Positions 11,555 through 19,807 of a stretch of 64,000 nt of DNA are shown here, piece after piece; within the stretch, counting starts at the first letter, position 1, and each line of letters starts with the position of its first letter. The position numbers and the translations under genes are program-made. The notes beneath the pieces were generated by a model, which was given only the letters and a program-made list of their open reading frames with translations, was not told the origin of the DNA and ran no database searches. Origin of the DNA: Halapricum salinum. GTDB lineage: Archaea; Halobacteriota; Halobacteria; Halobacteriales; Haloarculaceae. The stretch is from positions 1,728,887-1,792,886 of the forward strand of contig NZ_CP031310.1 of NCBI RefSeq assembly GCF_004799665.1, written 5' to 3'.

Positions 11555-11635
11555 ATGGCGTCCACTTCCACGGACTGCTGGCGCTGGCGACGGTCGGAAG
11601 TGGACAGTCTCGCGGCCGTCGTCCGGCGGGCCTAA
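11555..11635 (+). CDS. candidate trpS leader peptide with two Trp codons
   Basis: ATG at 11555 opens a 26-residue ORF beginning MASTSTDCWRWRR and ending VVRRA before TAA at 11633-11635, 80 bp upstream of trpS. Two Trp (codons 11579-11581 and 11585-11587) sit in the loop between the arms of a perfect 10-bp inverted repeat. A TATA-like GGCATAAGGG is centred about 27 bp before the ATG, so the mRNA is probably leaderless and translation would begin at its first bases. Trp-rich leader ORFs before Trp genes are the hallmark of attenuation in bacteria. I know of no described case in haloarchaea, so the function is inference. Confidence 0.65.
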   Translation: MASTSTDCWRWRRSEVDSLAAVVRRA

Positions 11636-11715: not shown

Positions 11716-13326
11716 ATGACAGACACCACCGACGACGACCCACCGGACGAACCGACCGACGACCGGACAAGAGACACGCGGCTCCGCGCTGACGGTGCCG
11801 GCGCAGCGGGGGCCGACGACGTCGCGCTCGATCCGTGGGGCTCGGCCACCGTCGAGGACTACCGCAAGCTCTTCGAGCAGTTCGGCATCGAGTCCTTCGA
11901 CGAAATCTTGCCCGAGGTGCCGAACCCCCACTACCTGATGCGCCGCGGCGTCATCTTCGGGCATCGGGACTACCGCCCGGTCGCCGAGGCGATGCGCGAG
12001 GGCGAAGACTTCGCCGTCCTCTCGGGGTTCATGCCGACGGGCGACCCCCACATCGGCCACAAGATGGTCTTCGACGAGATCGTCTGGCACCAGCAGCAGG
12101 GCGGGGACGCCTACGGGCTGATCGCCGACCTGGAAGCCCACGCCGCCCGCGAACTCTCCTGGGAGACGATCGACGAACACGCCCGCAGCTACATCCTCTC
12201 GCTGCTCGCGCTCGGATTCGATCCCGAGGAGGGCGAACTCTACCGCCAGTCGGACAACCGCGAGGTCCAGGATCTGGGCTTCGAACTGGGCGCGAAAGCC
12301 AACTTCTCCGAGTTGCAGGCGATCTACGACTTCGACGGCGAGACAGACGTCAGCCACATGCAGAGCGTGGTTACACAGATGGCCGACATCCTCTATCCCC
12401 AACTCGAGGAACCCAAACCCACGGTGATTCCGGTCGGTCCCGACCAGGACCCGCACATGCGGCTGGCGCGGGATCTGGCCGCGCGGATGCGCTACTTCAA
12501 GGTGACCGAGGCGTTCGCGAGTTTCGAGGTCGATCCCGATCAGCGTTCGATCATCGCCGAGGCCTACGAGACCCTCAGCCAGCGCCATCCCGACGAGACC
12601 GTCCGCTGTGAGGACGCCGCGCGCTACCTCGAAAACGAGCGCGATCCGGACGCGACCGACCTCAACGCCACCCGGACGGACTCGGCCATCATGATGCTCA
12701 AAGAAGCCGGCAAGGAGCCACTGCGACCCCGAACCCGGTTCCTCGATCGCAACGCCACCGACGAGGCCTTCGAGGCGCTGATCGAGGCTATCGACGGCGA
12801 GAAACGCGTCTACGAGGCCCACATCGACGCCTTCGACCTCGATCGGGAGGCGGCCGAAGAACTCGCCCGCGAGGTCGAGATCGACCACGGCGGCTACGGC
12901 TTTCTCGCTCCCTCCTCGATCTATCACCGGTTCATGACCGGCTTGACTGGGGGCAAGATGTCCTCGTCGATCCCCGCGAGTCACATCTCACTGCTGGACG
13001 ACCCCGAAGAGGGCTACGACAAGGTCAAGGCCGCGACGACGGGGGGCCGCGAGACCGCCGAGGAACAGCGCGAACTCGGCGGCCGGGCCGACGAGTGTCC
13101 GGTCTACGAACTCTACGCCTACCTGTTGTCGGGCGACGACGACGAGTTCGCGACCGAGGTCTACGAGGAGTGTGTCGGCGGCGAGCGTCTCTGCGGTGGG
13201 TGCAAGGAGCAGGCCGCGGAGTTGATGGAGGAGTTCCTCGAAGAACACCAGGAGAAACGCGCGGAGTGGGAGGAGAAGCTGGACGAACTGGATATCGACT
13301 TCGACAGCGACCGCAAGCGGGCGTGA
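11716..13326 (+). CDS. trpS: tryptophanyl-tRNA synthetase
   Basis: The 536-residue class I synthetase charges tRNA-Trp. The HIGH-type motif is GDPHIGHKM (about residue 112) and the KMSKS loop is GGKMSSSIPASH (about residue 414). Between them are the archaeal/eukaryotic TrpRS blocks such as VIPVGPDQDPHMRLARDLA. The first ~35 residues are an acidic, disordered haloarchaeal extension. ATG at 11716 follows a 400-bp intergenic region that contains a Trp-codon leader ORF and hairpins, suggesting regulation by tRNA-Trp charging. The 82-bp palindromic element copy 2 begins 19 bp after the stop and may terminate the transcript. Confidence 0.95.
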   Translation: MTDTTDDDPPDEPTDDRTRDTRLRADGAGAAGADDVALDPWGSATVEDYRKLFEQFGIESFDEILPEVPNPHYLMRRGVIFGHRDYRPVAEAMREGEDFAVLSGFMPTGDPHIGHKMVFDEIVWHQQQGGDAYGLIADLEAHAARELSWETIDEHARSYILSLLALGFDPEEGELYRQSDNREVQDLGFELGAKANFSELQAIYDFDGETDVSHMQSVVTQMADILYPQLEEPKPTVIPVGPDQDPHMRLARDLAARMRYFKVTEAFASFEVDPDQRSIIAEAYETLSQRHPDETVRCEDAARYLENERDPDATDLNATRTDSAIMMLKEAGKEPLRPRTRFLDRNATDEAFEALIEAIDGEKRVYEAHIDAFDLDREAAEELAREVEIDHGGYGFLAPSSIYHRFMTGLTGGKMSSSIPASHISLLDDPEEGYDKVKAATTGGRETAEEQRELGGRADECPVYELYAYLLSGDDDEFATEVYEECVGGERLCGGCKEQAAELMEEFLEEHQEKRAEWEEKLDELDIDFDSDRKRA

Positions 13327-13345
13327 ATAGGCTTTCAACCCGCTC

Positions 13346-13427
13346 ATAGTGACCGTTGTAAGTCTGTTCCGGATCGACCGCACGCCTTCGTGCGGTCGTA
13401 CCGGTAAATCGTTACAACGGTCACTAT
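13346..13427 (+). repeat. 82-bp palindromic element, copy 2
   Basis: Perfect 15-bp outer arms ATAGTGACCGTTGTA / TACAACGGTCACTAT enclose the inner stem GACCGCACG/CGTGCGGTC. The linkers are the same as in copy 1 (CTGTTCCGGATC and ACCGGTAAATCG). The arms differ from copy 1 by compensated changes, so the hairpin rather than the primary sequence is preserved. It lies between the convergent ends of trpS and the 71-residue membrane protein gene. Confidence 0.85.
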
Positions 13428-13500
13428 CAGACGTCGCTATCGACCGAGACCACGGACATGTCGAAGGCACAACGAATCGTCCCGTCCGGCAGCACGACCG

Positions 13501-16186: not shown

Positions 16187-16274
16187 TACGTTCTAGCGAC
16201 GCCAGAGCGCCCATCAATCATTCGGTCCCGGCGACTCCACAATGCTTATTGAGACGGTGTGGCAAGGCAGGGGT

Positions 16275-16364
16275 ATGCCAGCCGAACCCCACTGCAGGCG
16301 TCTCGTTGGCCAGCCGACCGACAGCGCAGGGTTCGGTTTCTTTTTCGGGGCCTGCGGGCGGTGA
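16275..16364 (+). CDS. candidate pheST leader peptide with Phe-run
   Basis: ATG at 16275 opens a 29-residue ORF that starts MPAEPHCRR and ends GFGFFFGACGR before TGA at 16362-16364. Four Phe codons occupy 16332-16334 and 16338-16346. It lies 213 bp upstream of pheS on the same strand. A TATA-like GCTTATTGA (16244-16252) is centred about 27 bp before the ATG, the leaderless spacing. The layout parallels the Phe-rich pheM leader that attenuates pheST in Escherichia coli, and the neighbouring trpS has a matching Trp-codon ORF. Expression and function are inference; the ORF, Phe run and promoter spacing are seen directly. Confidence 0.7.
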   Translation: MPAEPHCRRLVGQPTDSAGFGFFFGACGR

Positions 16365-16421
16365 ACTCGGGGCTCGGCGCTGACGCGCCGCCCCGACGAA
16401 ACCGTCCCGTCGTCGGCCCCG
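16282..16421 (+). promoter_or_regulatory. candidate pheST attenuator: competing stems and U-tract at the Phe codons
   Basis: CCGAACCC (16282-16289) pairs perfectly with GGGTTCGG (16329-16336) and is followed at once by TTTCTTTTTC (16337-16346), which is both the Phe run and an archaeal-type U-tract. A second stem, CGCAGG/CCTGCG (16325-16330/16351-16356), overlaps and excludes the first. A third stem-loop (TCGGGG...CCCCGA, 16367-16396, with inner GGCGC/GCGCC) starts 2 bp after the leader stop. A further pairing CGGGGCC/GGCCCCG (16346-16352/16415-16421) is possible. The mutually exclusive design is attenuator-like; the mechanism is inferred. Confidence 0.55.
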
Positions 16422-16451
16422 TGTTCGCGTCCAGTGGCGTGAGCACGAGTG

Positions 16452-16531
16452 ATCGTGACCGCTGTACCGATGGACCGGGACGACCGCACAGACGTACGGT
16501 CGATCCAGCACAGGCGGACGGCAGTCACTAT
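16452..16531 (-). repeat. palindromic element, copy 4, diverged and inverted
   Basis: Read on the minus strand this is ATAGTGACTGCCGTC, then a CTGTGCTGGATCGACCG stretch and CGGTCGTCCCGGT, ending TACAGCGGTCACGAT. It aligns along its full length with copies 1 and 2, but only 11 of 15 outer-arm positions still pair. It is 80 bp long and sits between the pheS leader ORF and pheS, the one copy located upstream of a gene. Confidence 0.65.
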
Positions 16532-16577
16532 GAGAACCGTTAACTGACGAACCCGCGGTATATCCACCAACGAACCG

Positions 16578-18080
16578 ATGCAACTCCCAGAAACGCAGGT
16601 CGCGGTCCTCGAAGCCGCGAGTGCTGAGGATCCACGCACAGTCGAATCGCTCGCCGACGAGATCGGCGAAAAACCCGAGACGGTCACCCGGGCCGCCTTC
16701 GAACTCGAAGACGAGGGGCTGGTCGAGGTGCTCGAGACGACCGACGAGCACGTCTCGCTGACCGACGAGGCTCGGACCTATCTCGACGACGGGCTCCCTG
16801 AAGTTCGCCTCTACCGGGCGGCCGTCGAGGCCGGTGCGGACGACGCGCCCGTCCAGATGGGGCAGGTCATCGGCGCGTCGGGTCTCGAAGGCGGCGCAGT
16901 CGACATCGCGCTGTCGAACTTCGCCCGGAAGGGCTACGGCGAGATCGCCAGCGGCGAGATCACCGCGAGTCCGGCGGCCGGTCCCGACGACGACCCGGAG
17001 GCCGCGGCGCTTGCAGCACTCGACGCTGGCGAGAGTGCCGACGGGAGCGTCCTCGACCAGCTCGAACGCCGGGAGCTGATCGAGCGCTCCGAGAGTACGG
17101 TCAGGTCTGTCCAGCTGACCGACGAGGGCGTGACCGCACTGATGGAGGGCGTCGAAGCCGCCCAGGAGGTCGGCCAGCTCACATCGGAGATGCTCACCAG
17201 CGGGGCGTGGCGCGACGCCGAGTTCAGCGAGTACAACGTCGCGGCCGACGCCGAGACCATCGACGGCGGGAAAGACCACCCGCTGCGGGCGATGGCAGAA
17301 CGCGTCAAAGACGTGCTGGTCGGGATGGGCTTCGAGGAGATGGAAGGCCCCCACGCCGACGCGGAGTTCTGGATCAACGACTGTCTGTTCATGCCCCAGG
17401 ACCACCCCGCGCGCACGCACTGGGACCAGTTCGCGCTGGAGGTCCCGCCGATGCGCGACCTGCCCGACGACGTCCGCGAGCGCGTCGAGACCGCCCATCG
17501 TGAGGGTGTCGGCGCGGACGGCGAGGGGTATCACTCCCCCTGGGGCGAGGAGATGGCCCGCCAGATCGACCTCCGGGGCCACACCACGTCGCTGTCGGCC
17601 CGCCACCTCGCGGGCGTCGCGAAAGGCGATCTGGAGCCGCCCCAGCGGTTCTTCTCGATCGAGAAGGCCTACCGCAACGACGAGATCGATTCGACGCACC
17701 TGCTGGAGTTCTTCCAGATCGAGGGCTGGGTCATGGCCGAGGATCTCTCGGTTCGGGATCTGATGGGCACCTTTACCGAGTTTTACGAGCAGTTCGGGAT
17801 CACCGACCTGCGATTCAAGCCCACCTATAATCCCTACACTGAACCCTCGTTCGAGCTGTTCGGCGAGCACCCCGTCACGGGCGAAGTGGTCGAGATCGGT
17901 AACTCGGGGATCTTCCGGCCGGAGATGCTCGAACCCCTCGACGTGGACTGTGACGTGATGGCCTGGGGTCTGGCCCTCGAACGGTTGATGATGCTCGTCA
18001 CTGGTGCGGAAGACATCCGGGACGTCCACGGGACGCTCGTGGATCTGGAGTACCTGCGCGAAGAGGAGGTGCGTTACTGA
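16578..18080 (+). CDS. pheS: phenylalanyl-tRNA synthetase alpha subunit
   Basis: The 500-residue class II synthetase alpha chain starts MQLPETQVAVLEAASAEDPR, with two N-terminal winged-helix-like domains typical of archaeal/eukaryotic PheS. The catalytic core includes GFEEMEGPHADAEFWIND (motif 1 area), HTTSLSARHLA, the FFSIEKAYRNDEIDSTHLLEFFQIEGW motif 2 region and GIFRPEMLEP...AWGLALERLMML (motif 3). With PheT it forms the alpha2beta2 enzyme. Its stop codon TGA overlaps the pheT ATG by one base (TGATG), indicating translational coupling. Upstream lies a Phe-rich leader ORF with competing hairpins. Confidence 0.96.
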   Translation: MQLPETQVAVLEAASAEDPRTVESLADEIGEKPETVTRAAFELEDEGLVEVLETTDEHVSLTDEARTYLDDGLPEVRLYRAAVEAGADDAPVQMGQVIGASGLEGGAVDIALSNFARKGYGEIASGEITASPAAGPDDDPEAAALAALDAGESADGSVLDQLERRELIERSESTVRSVQLTDEGVTALMEGVEAAQEVGQLTSEMLTSGAWRDAEFSEYNVAADAETIDGGKDHPLRAMAERVKDVLVGMGFEEMEGPHADAEFWINDCLFMPQDHPARTHWDQFALEVPPMRDLPDDVRERVETAHREGVGADGEGYHSPWGEEMARQIDLRGHTTSLSARHLAGVAKGDLEPPQRFFSIEKAYRNDEIDSTHLLEFFQIEGWVMAEDLSVRDLMGTFTEFYEQFGITDLRFKPTYNPYTEPSFELFGEHPVTGEVVEIGNSGIFRPEMLEPLDVDCDVMAWGLALERLMMLVTGAEDIRDVHGTLVDLEYLREEEVRY

Positions 18081-19807
18081 TGCCGACTGTCGATATCGCT
18101 ACCGACGAACTGCGAGAACTGACCGGCTACACGGACACGACCGACGAGGAGTTCAAGACCGAACTGTTCGACCTCGGCCTCGAGTTCGAAGGCGAGACCG
18201 AGGACGGCGAGTTGCAGTTCGAGTTCGAGCCCGACCGATTGGATCGGCTCTCCGTCGAGGGCGTCGCGCGGTCGCTGCGGTACGACCGCGGGGACAGCCG
18301 GGGCGTCCACGTCCCGGACACGAACAGTGCCGACTGGACGATCGAAGTCGAAGACGTGCCCGAAGAACGGCCCTACGTCACGGGCGCGATCGTTCGCGGG
18401 CTGGACCTCTCGGAGTCGGCGTTCGACTCGCTGATCCAGCTCCAGGAGAAGCTCCATGCGACGATGGGGCGCAAGCGCGCGAAGGGCGCGATCGGCGTTC
18501 ACGATCTGACGATGTTGAAAGGTGAGGCTGCGGTGGATGGCAAAGGGAAGTCCATTCGCTACACGGGCGTCGACCCCGAGGAGGCGACGTTCGTGCCGCT
18601 GGAGAGTGACGCCGAGATGACGCCCGCCGAGGTCATCGCCGAGCACCATATCGGCCAGGAGTACGCCCATCTCGTCGAAGACATGGATCGCGTGCCGGCG
18701 ATCTACGACTCGATCGGGCTGTTCTCGTTCCCGCCAGTCATCAACGGCAAGCGCACGGAGGTCACGACGAACTCCCGGGACCTCTTCATCGAGATGACCG
18801 GCACCGACCAGTGGACGATCGACCACATGCTCAACATCGTCTGCTACGCGCTCGCTGCTCGCGGCGGAACCATCGAGGACGTCAACGTCGAGTACGAAAC
18901 CGCCCCCGAGGAGTACCCCGCCGACCTCGTGCGGCCGGACTTCTCGACGAAGACCAAGACGGTGGTCCACGACCGTATCGAGACGGCGCTCGGGATCGAG
19001 CTTTCGGAGGAGGAGGTGCTCGACCTCCTCGAACGCTCCGGGCTGGAAGGTGTCTCTACCGACGTCGACGGCGAAGCCGGCTACGAGGTGACGATCCCGC
19101 CCTACCGCGTGGACGTCCTCCATCCCGTCGATGTGATCGACGACGTGGGTCGGGCCTACGGCTTCAACGATCTCGAACCGCGGTATCCCGACGTGGGGAC
19201 GATCGGCGGGCGACACGAGCGCTCGCGGCTGGCGCGTGCGGTCCGGCAGTCGCTCGTCGGGCTCGGGTTCCAGGATCTGTTGAACTTCCACATGACCGAC
19301 GCGGCCCAGGTCGGCGACCGAATGAATCTCGGGGATTCAGAGAGTGTGCTGGGTTCCCAGGAGCCCGTTCGGATCACGAATCCCTACAGCGAGGACTACA
19401 CCATCGCGAGGTCGTGGCTGCTGCCCTCGATCATGCAGGTGCTGGAGAACAACACCCATCGGAGCTACCCGCAGGATCTCTCGGAGGTCGGCTGGGTCGC
19501 TCATCGCGACGACGAGCAGAACACGCGGGTCGCAGAAGCGAGGCACGTCGCTGGTGTGCTCGCGCGTCACGGCGTCTCCTACGAAGACGGGAAGGCGAGG
19601 CTGCAGGCGCTGGTCGACGATTACGACGCCGAGCTGGAGACGCCGCCGACCGAGCACCCCTCCTTTATTTCGGGTCGGGTGGCCGAGGTCGTGATCGACG
19701 GTGACAGCGTGGGTGTGCTCGGTGAGATTCACCCCGAAGTGCTGGTGGAGCACGATCTTGAGTTGCCCGTGGTCGCGTTCGAATTCGATCTCGACGCGCT
19801 TCGCTGA
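18080..19807 (+). CDS. pheT: phenylalanyl-tRNA synthetase beta subunit
   Basis: The 575-residue protein starts MPTVDIATDELRELTGYTDT and matches the archaeal/eukaryotic-length beta chain. It has the B3/B4 domain (RPYVTGAIVRGLDLSESAFDS...KLHATMGRKRAKGAIGVHDL), the B5 domain (VDVLHPVDVIDDVGRAYGFND) and a catalytic-like core (PVRITNPYSEDYTIARSWLLPSIMQVLENN). The beta subunit carries editing (B3/B4) and tRNA-binding functions. It is translationally coupled to pheS. Palindromic element copy 3 lies 79 bp downstream, followed by the accessory island. Confidence 0.96.
   Translation: MPTVDIATDELRELTGYTDTTDEEFKTELFDLGLEFEGETEDGELQFEFEPDRLDRLSVEGVARSLRYDRGDSRGVHVPDTNSADWTIEVEDVPEERPYVTGAIVRGLDLSESAFDSLIQLQEKLHATMGRKRAKGAIGVHDLTMLKGEAAVDGKGKSIRYTGVDPEEATFVPLESDAEMTPAEVIAEHHIGQEYAHLVEDMDRVPAIYDSIGLFSFPPVINGKRTEVTTNSRDLFIEMTGTDQWTIDHMLNIVCYALAARGGTIEDVNVEYETAPEEYPADLVRPDFSTKTKTVVHDRIETALGIELSEEEVLDLLERSGLEGVSTDVDGEAGYEVTIPPYRVDVLHPVDVIDDVGRAYGFNDLEPRYPDVGTIGGRHERSRLARAVRQSLVGLGFQDLLNFHMTDAAQVGDRMNLGDSESVLGSQEPVRITNPYSEDYTIARSWLLPSIMQVLENNTHRSYPQDLSEVGWVAHRDDEQNTRVAEARHVAGVLARHGVSYEDGKARLQALVDDYDAELETPPTEHPSFISGRVAEVVIDGDSVGVLGEIHPEVLVEHDLELPVVAFEFDLDALR

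Follow-up and report, generated by a model that had tools for sequence, protein, structure and literature searches.

Does the 390-nt intergenic region 5′ of pheS-pheT in Halapricum salinum carry a leader through which expression of the phenylalanyl-tRNA synthetase genes could follow the supply of phenylalanine? A phenylalanine sensor of this type is known in bacteria and, as far as we could find, is apparently undescribed in archaea; our search of the open-access literature, with subscription journals lying outside it, found no report of archaeal leader-peptide attenuation, of the peptide or of pheST leaders. A first-pass annotation of the 64,000-nt stretch of DNA analysed here (the window, to which all Halapricum coordinates refer) had proposed such a leader on the basis of a Phe-rich reading frame and a set of hairpins. 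We compared the locus with 80 named haloarchaeal pheS loci and with other members of the genus, about 84 loci in all, and scanned genomes of the class and the phylum with covariance models. Judging from these sequence comparisons, we hold with moderate confidence that most haloarchaea share a ribosome-dependent, cis-acting leader of pheST, of the attenuator type, that would sense Phe-tRNA.

Gene organization and promoter elements

In the complete 3.45 Mb Halapricum genome, pheS, encoding the alpha subunit of phenylalanyl-tRNA synthetase, occupies 16578..18080 of the plus strand (homologues of 68-85% identity), and the ORF directly 3′ of it on the same strand (18080..19807) is presumably pheT, encoding the beta subunit, a name that we take from synteny and established knowledge. 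The upstream neighbour (16186-14354) lies on the opposite, minus strand. Within the intergenic region, a TATA-like box, CTTATTG (16245..16251, plus strand), marks a putative distal promoter, P1, at leaderless spacing from the ATG of the leader ORF at 16275. This distance, already pointed out in the first-pass annotation, recurs among the 65 loci that hold the ORF: of the 56 that have a T-run of this kind, 53 have it starting 29 or 30 nt 5′ of the leader ATG, a spacing that implies leaderless leader transcripts. A 40-codon frame from an ATG at 16242 is open as well, and that ATG lies 5′ of the TATA box.

Closer to pheS, the conserved element GAGAACCGTTAACTGACG (16532..16549, plus strand) has similar counterparts in relatives, with the consensus CGGAACCGCTAACTGACC about 36-47 nt 5′ of the pheS ATG, in loci with and without a leader alike. 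It may be a second promoter, P2, or an operator, and P2 may supply basal pheST expression. Between this element and the hairpin H2 described below lies one copy of an 85-nt imperfect palindromic repeat (16450-16534), with ends like ATAGTGACNGTTGTA/TACAACGGTCACTAT and the centre CGACCGCAC..GTGCGGTCG. Another copy is found at 13343-13429 and others at L003, L004 and L005, five copies in the genome in all, and the repeat looks like a MITE-type element.

A leader ORF ending in phenylalanine codons

The 29-codon ORF at 16275..16364 (plus strand, MPAEPHCRRLVGQPTDSAGFGFFFGACGR, stop codon TGA), whose C-terminus GFGFFFGACGR had first drawn notice, is indeed present and has homologues in 65 of the approximately 84 haloarchaeal loci. 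These ORFs comprise 24-29 codons, two being longer through insertion, lie 85-245 nt 5′ of pheS and follow the pattern M-x-(S/A/P)-E-(P/S)...GFGFFF(A/G)... Of the 65 leaders, 62 have three to five Phe among their last 10 residues, and the last Phe codon is separated from the stop by 3-9 nt in 63. As in leaders of the attenuator class, the frame at these 65 loci has its own start and stop and is rich in codons for the cognate amino acid.

A stem kept as RNA

Two arms of the leader ORF pair with each other to form a stem, H1. The 5′ arm (16280..16289, plus strand, core CCGAACCC) spans codons 2-5 and the 3′ arm (16329..16338, plus strand, core GGGTTCGG) comprises the Gly-Phe-Gly codons. The core 16282-16289/16329-16336, which had been recognised as a stem followed by a U-tract, is perfectly paired, the minimum free energy fold lengthens it to 16280-16289/16329-16338, and the region 16275-16420 folds 3.7 sd below its shuffles. 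Moreover, RNAalifold returned exactly H1 from an alignment (A1) of 63 leaders that had been picked by ORF and Phe content and not by the stem. Changes on both sides were found in 9 of 11 pairs, with compensations occurring in different genera, and double-change cells numbered 56 against 24.4 ± 3.2 in shuffled alignments, counts that ignore kinship. Cells of the alignment were paired in 84% of cases and in at most 60% once the 3′ arm was slid.

Some of these compensations reach into the peptide. In Halobellus (L083) and Halogeometricum (L043) the stem is kept as CCGGACCC/GGGTCCGG while GFG becomes GSG; compensation in Halolamina (L084) changes the peptide to GVG; and in two Halorubrum loci H1 is kept as GAACGC/GCGTTC with the peptide AFE (L074) and as GAACAC/GTGTTC with the peptide VFG (L076). 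By this pattern of substitution H1 is selected as RNA, its pairing being kept at the expense of the peptide. The conservation of GFGFFF in most leaders could suggest that the leader encodes a peptide-specific arrest sequence or a functional small hydrophobic protein; yet the replacements just described alter that very peptide, the residues past the Phe run vary freely and the middle of the leader is poorly conserved, and we regard such a function as very improbable.

The second stem of the first-pass annotation, said to overlap and exclude the first, fared differently: it is not conserved across the leaders, and no conserved antiterminator was found in them. A candidate for it, GCAGGC (16294-16299) with GCCTGC (16350-16355), was rejected; it needs a C-terminal extension specific to this Halapricum leader and absent from other Halapricum leaders. 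To see whether H2 pairs over a distance with the H1 loop or the Phe tail, own duplexes were compared with swapped ones; their energies were equal, and the positive control (the H1 arms, crudely cut) was flat as well, which makes the comparison a weak one.

As a separate observation, the loop of H1, at leader codons 8-14 (about 16296-16316), carries a semi-conserved V-x-R-Q-P (GTCGYYCGYCAGYC), parts of which vary little at third codon positions.

Phenylalanine codons as a U-tract

Directly 3′ of H1, the three Phe codons TTC TTT TTC (16338..16346, plus strand) form a U-tract, and codons F23-F24 within it (16341-16346, plus strand) spell T5C, the motif of haloarchaeal terminators and here a candidate terminator. 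In a Haloferax volcanii reporter, a T5C insert gave 95% termination and a hairpin alone 59% (PMC7237163), and a T stretch was considered very hard to fit into a coding region (Berkemer 2020, PMC7237163). A hairpin and a U-tract 5′ of a structural gene are likewise features of the attenuator class, although, unlike in the classical type, both are placed inside the ORF.

That the Phe run doubles as a U-tract, as had been suggested, is borne out by codon usage across the 65 leaders. TTT accounts for 58 of 177 Phe codons in the leader tails (33%) versus 57 of 1187 (4.8%) in pheS of the same loci, and all 56 Phe codons within the H1 arm are TTC. Leaders with only two Phe in the tail mostly read TTTTTT, and where a tail Phe has changed to Val the codon is GTT, so that GTTTTC results. 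Runs of T5 or T6 are present in 39 of the 65 leaders, each of about 80 nt, versus 11 TTTTTC in 97 kb of pheS coding sequence, and 37 of the 39 lie in the Phe codon frame. No T-run longer than two is present in 10 of the 65 (TTCTTCTTC) and only T3 in another 10, so termination in these would need a weaker U-rich tract. The leaders without a T-run retain TTC TTC TTC, which indicates that the Phe codons are also preserved for their own sake. By these counts, the Phe codons are selected twice, as Phe and, at the nucleotide level, as a U-tract.

These counts bear on a different explanation, a terminator gated by translation and blind to amino acids, in which H1 and T5C would terminate by default and an early ribosome following RNA polymerase would prevent H1 from forming. 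The output of pheST would then report general translation-initiation capacity and Phe would be a by-product of an in-frame U-tract. Such a terminator fits the timing of intrinsic termination, T5C is efficient, and the 5′ arm of H1, being codons 2-5, is placed where the initiating ribosome sits. It would leave the U-runs free to sit in any frame, yet nearly all keep that of Phe; three Phe codons are kept where the T-run is lost; and the leader is found only at the cognate synthetase, trpS in turn having a leader with Trp codons (see below). We therefore consider it unlikely.

Another thought is that H1 and the U-tract are a mere terminator of the upstream gene. In many relatives that gene is trpS, which some genomes carry in the same orientation, its end lying about 100-150 nt upstream. 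In Halapricum, however, the upstream gene points the other way; 26 of 64 loci have their longest upstream frame on the minus strand; and the leader has a TATA box, an ATG and a frame of its own that are conserved, which leaves this idea barely credible.

A second hairpin around the leader stop

A third hairpin had been placed 2 bp after the leader stop. The hairpin itself, H2 (16356..16407, plus strand), was recovered by RNAalifold and covariance modelling, pair counts, minimum free energy folding and inverted repeats, and it covaries; its start had to be moved, as the ORF already includes the 5′ strand of the outer helix (16356-16361/16402-16407), and an internal loop (TGAACT, 16362-16367; ACGAAA, 16396-16401) takes in the stop codon (16362-16364). 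An inner helix (16368-16373/16390-16395) and an apical stem (16375-16380/16385-16390) complete it, all on the plus strand. In relatives H2 is found directly 3′ of the stop, while in Halapricum it overlaps the stop. The Halapricum leader extends beyond the usual stop (16353-16364) and ends in the loop of H2. The leader at L094 has lost its stop, and its frame continues through H2.

No other part of the element covaries as strongly as H2. Its cells were paired in 91% of cases and in no more than 51% when slid, and double-change cells numbered 132 versus 43 in shuffles. The 5x5 internal loop reads YGGAN/NGAAA with GAAA invariant in the alignment; as the GAAAC motif had served to choose the aligned sequences, loop counts are biased and the helices unbiased. 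We take the loop to fit the tandem G-A motif 5′YGGA/3′RAAG. A covariance model of H2 (R1) gave a single match in the Halapricum genome, and under strict filters it matched 117 of the 294 class genomes, each of them exactly once. All 30 matches that were fetched lie just 5′ of pheS, some of the species being also in the model-building set, and a Phe leader was detectable at 29 of them, the thirtieth being L094. A search of Rfam 15 gave no match at gathering score in ten homologous loci and chance-level matches only in this region of the Halapricum window. H2 is a conserved and so far unnamed RNA structure specific to pheST.

Some loci that lack an intact leader hold a relic of one: the start codon is lost in Halomicrobium katesii (L018, 3818-3951) and the Phe run in Halorhabdus amylolytica (L008, 3722-3857), both with H2 kept, and a metagenome bin (L013) has a frame change in the leader. 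The retention of H2 beside the damaged leaders of L008 and L018, together with its covariation, the invariant GAAA and its uniqueness to pheST, could suggest that regulation actually resides in H2, as a putative binding site of PheRS or another protein in autogenous control, to which the leader merely adds; the GAAA strand in fact contains the Phe anticodon triplet GAA. Nevertheless, the covariance model of the leader structure finds 232 genomes and that of H2 117, a difference owed in part to the lower sensitivity of the shorter H2 model, and tandem G-A pairs explain the invariant loop without any ligand. We rate this explanation as quite improbable.

Distribution of the leader

The covariance model of the leader structure (R2) matched 232 of 294 genomes of the class and 68 of 78 genera. 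In the Halapricum genome it recognised pheST only (E 2e-16), and among 197 genomes sampled from the phylum it gave no match outside Halapricum's own order. A Phe-rich ORF with a covarying H1 is therefore widespread among haloarchaea, the opposite of the absence from homologous loci that the first-pass annotation had named as speaking against its reading. About 20% of haloarchaeal genomes are without an R2 match, which indicates that the device is dispensable. Second R2 matches in other genomes, considered as further copies of the device, turned out in most cases to be either weak or the antisense reading of the one palindromic site.

A tryptophan-codon leader at trpS

A comparable leader ORF precedes trpS (11716-13326) in the same window. 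It lies at 11555-11635 (plus strand, MASTSTDCWRWRRSEVDSLAAVVRRA) with the TATA-like GCATAAGG upstream, and a perfect stem (GTCCACTTCC/GGAAGTGGAC) holds its Trp codons in the loop, while a second perfect stem, CCGGCGGG-CCTAA-CCCGCCGG, encloses the stop. Counterparts of this leader occur in a Halapricum relative and, within another genus, in three members (MAAPWRWRWRDATGADSLATRSVR and others), with a stem whose sequence has changed and whose pairing is kept (L164, L175, L177 and L180); none was found at the other 25 trpS loci. No further Trp leader with a WRWR pattern was seen among the first 30 of 110 matches in the Halapricum genome. The trpS leader has no U-tract, so its downstream step may differ from that of pheST. 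The Trp codons lend independent support to the cognate-codon reading.

With regard to gene order, several relatives (genomes G021, G091, G120 and others) have trpS close 5′ of the pheST leader and in the same orientation. In Halapricum, 3 kb separate the two, and a minus-strand gene lies in the interval.

Proposed mode of action

The first-pass annotation had read the region as an attenuator of pheST, and of this reading the cognate-codon leader, H1 and the U-tract stand, while the mutually exclusive stems have to be given up. Taking the ORF, its promoter spacing, H1, the selection on the U-tract, H2 and the restriction to pheST as established by sequence comparison, we infer that the leader is translated and that it works as follows. 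Transcription from P1 would set in at the leader AUG or right beside it, giving a leaderless RNA for a ribosome to load on. The Phe codons, as a U-tract, would act as a signal for transcription termination or 3′-end cleavage. With Phe-tRNA plentiful, the ribosome would clear the Phe codons and leave; H1 could then fold, tie up the leader start and present the U-tract, and transcription would end 5′ of pheST. With charged tRNA-Phe scarce, the ribosome would stall on the Phe codons; the U-tract would be covered together with the 3′ arm of H1, the leader start would stay open, and RNA polymerase would go on into pheST. H2, which forms directly 3′ of this, probably makes the read-through RNA more stable or is bound by a factor. 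Since the U-tract is 5′ of the stop codon, terminated RNAs would be non-stop.

The timing of these events deserves attention. If termination were purely intrinsic, the Phe codons would not yet have emerged when RNA polymerase is at T5C, and the stall would come too late. Factor-dependent termination by FttA/aCPSF1 on a U-tract that has already emerged would solve this problem, and post-transcriptional control would fit as well. In Methanococcus, U-tracts are bound by the termination factor aCPSF1, which works together with them (Li 2021, PMC8716108), and the pre-termination complex of Thermococcus FttA calls for U-rich RNA at a distance of 30-36 nt from the 3′ end of the transcript (PMC11616081). 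Applied to the pheST leader, this geometry would place RNA polymerase about 30-36 nt past the U-tract, with the ribosome on the Phe codons between. Mutual exclusion of FttA and the ribosome was proposed by the authors of that study (PMC11616081) and likewise in a review (PMC8116511).

Perhaps, then, the same nucleotides serve as codons and as factor site, a stalled ribosome hiding the U-tract from FttA/aCPSF1. This version, which would be the first ribosome-mediated attenuator in Archaea and of a form unseen in bacteria, is put forward tentatively, as possible at somewhat less than an even chance. It also takes in the near class-wide spread of the leader, its coupling to H2 and the Trp-codon version at trpS of two genera. 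As U-tracts spell Phe, such sharing would suit phenylalanine above all. The pheST leader makes control of archaeal transcription termination by translation directly testable in tractable haloarchaea such as Haloarcula, two loci of which (L067 and L069) carry the leader. It would also test whether ribosome and FttA exclude each other, as has been proposed.

Comparison with known systems

In enterobacteria, pheST is attenuated through the leader peptide PheM, with a terminator 3′ of the leader stop and a competing antiterminator. The haloarchaeal leader resembles it in having a short ORF with a Phe run before pheST, one or more stems and a U-tract, at the same gene and presumably for the same signal. 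It is unlike PheM in that the Phe codons are themselves the U-tract, that no conserved antiterminator is present and that H2 follows the stop, besides an archaeal host with leaderless translation and termination through U-tracts and FttA; sequence homology between the two is not claimed. In its proposed logic it comes close to tnaC of E. coli, where peptide arrest with free Trp controls Rho-dependent termination, as in both a stalled ribosome would shield the site on the nascent RNA at which a termination factor loads. The trigger proposed here is, unlike that of tnaC, uncharged tRNA at a run of codons, and the factor would be FttA/aCPSF1, which is unrelated to Rho.

Among archaeal systems, the published T5C and U-tract terminators (PMC7237163, PMC8716108) share the T5C motif, here made from Phe codons; those terminators are found at intergenic 3′ ends, whereas the one at pheST is inside a coding leader, before the gene. 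As of 2021, promoter recruitment was stated to be the only known target of archaeal transcriptional regulation, and promoter-proximal control of elongation with recruitment of aCPSF1 was described in Saccharolobus (PMC8448881). The pheST leader would share with Saccharolobus the use of early elongation and premature termination as a regulated step; control in Saccharolobus, however, is global, with no tie to a leader ORF or to an amino acid, while at pheST it would be tied to both.
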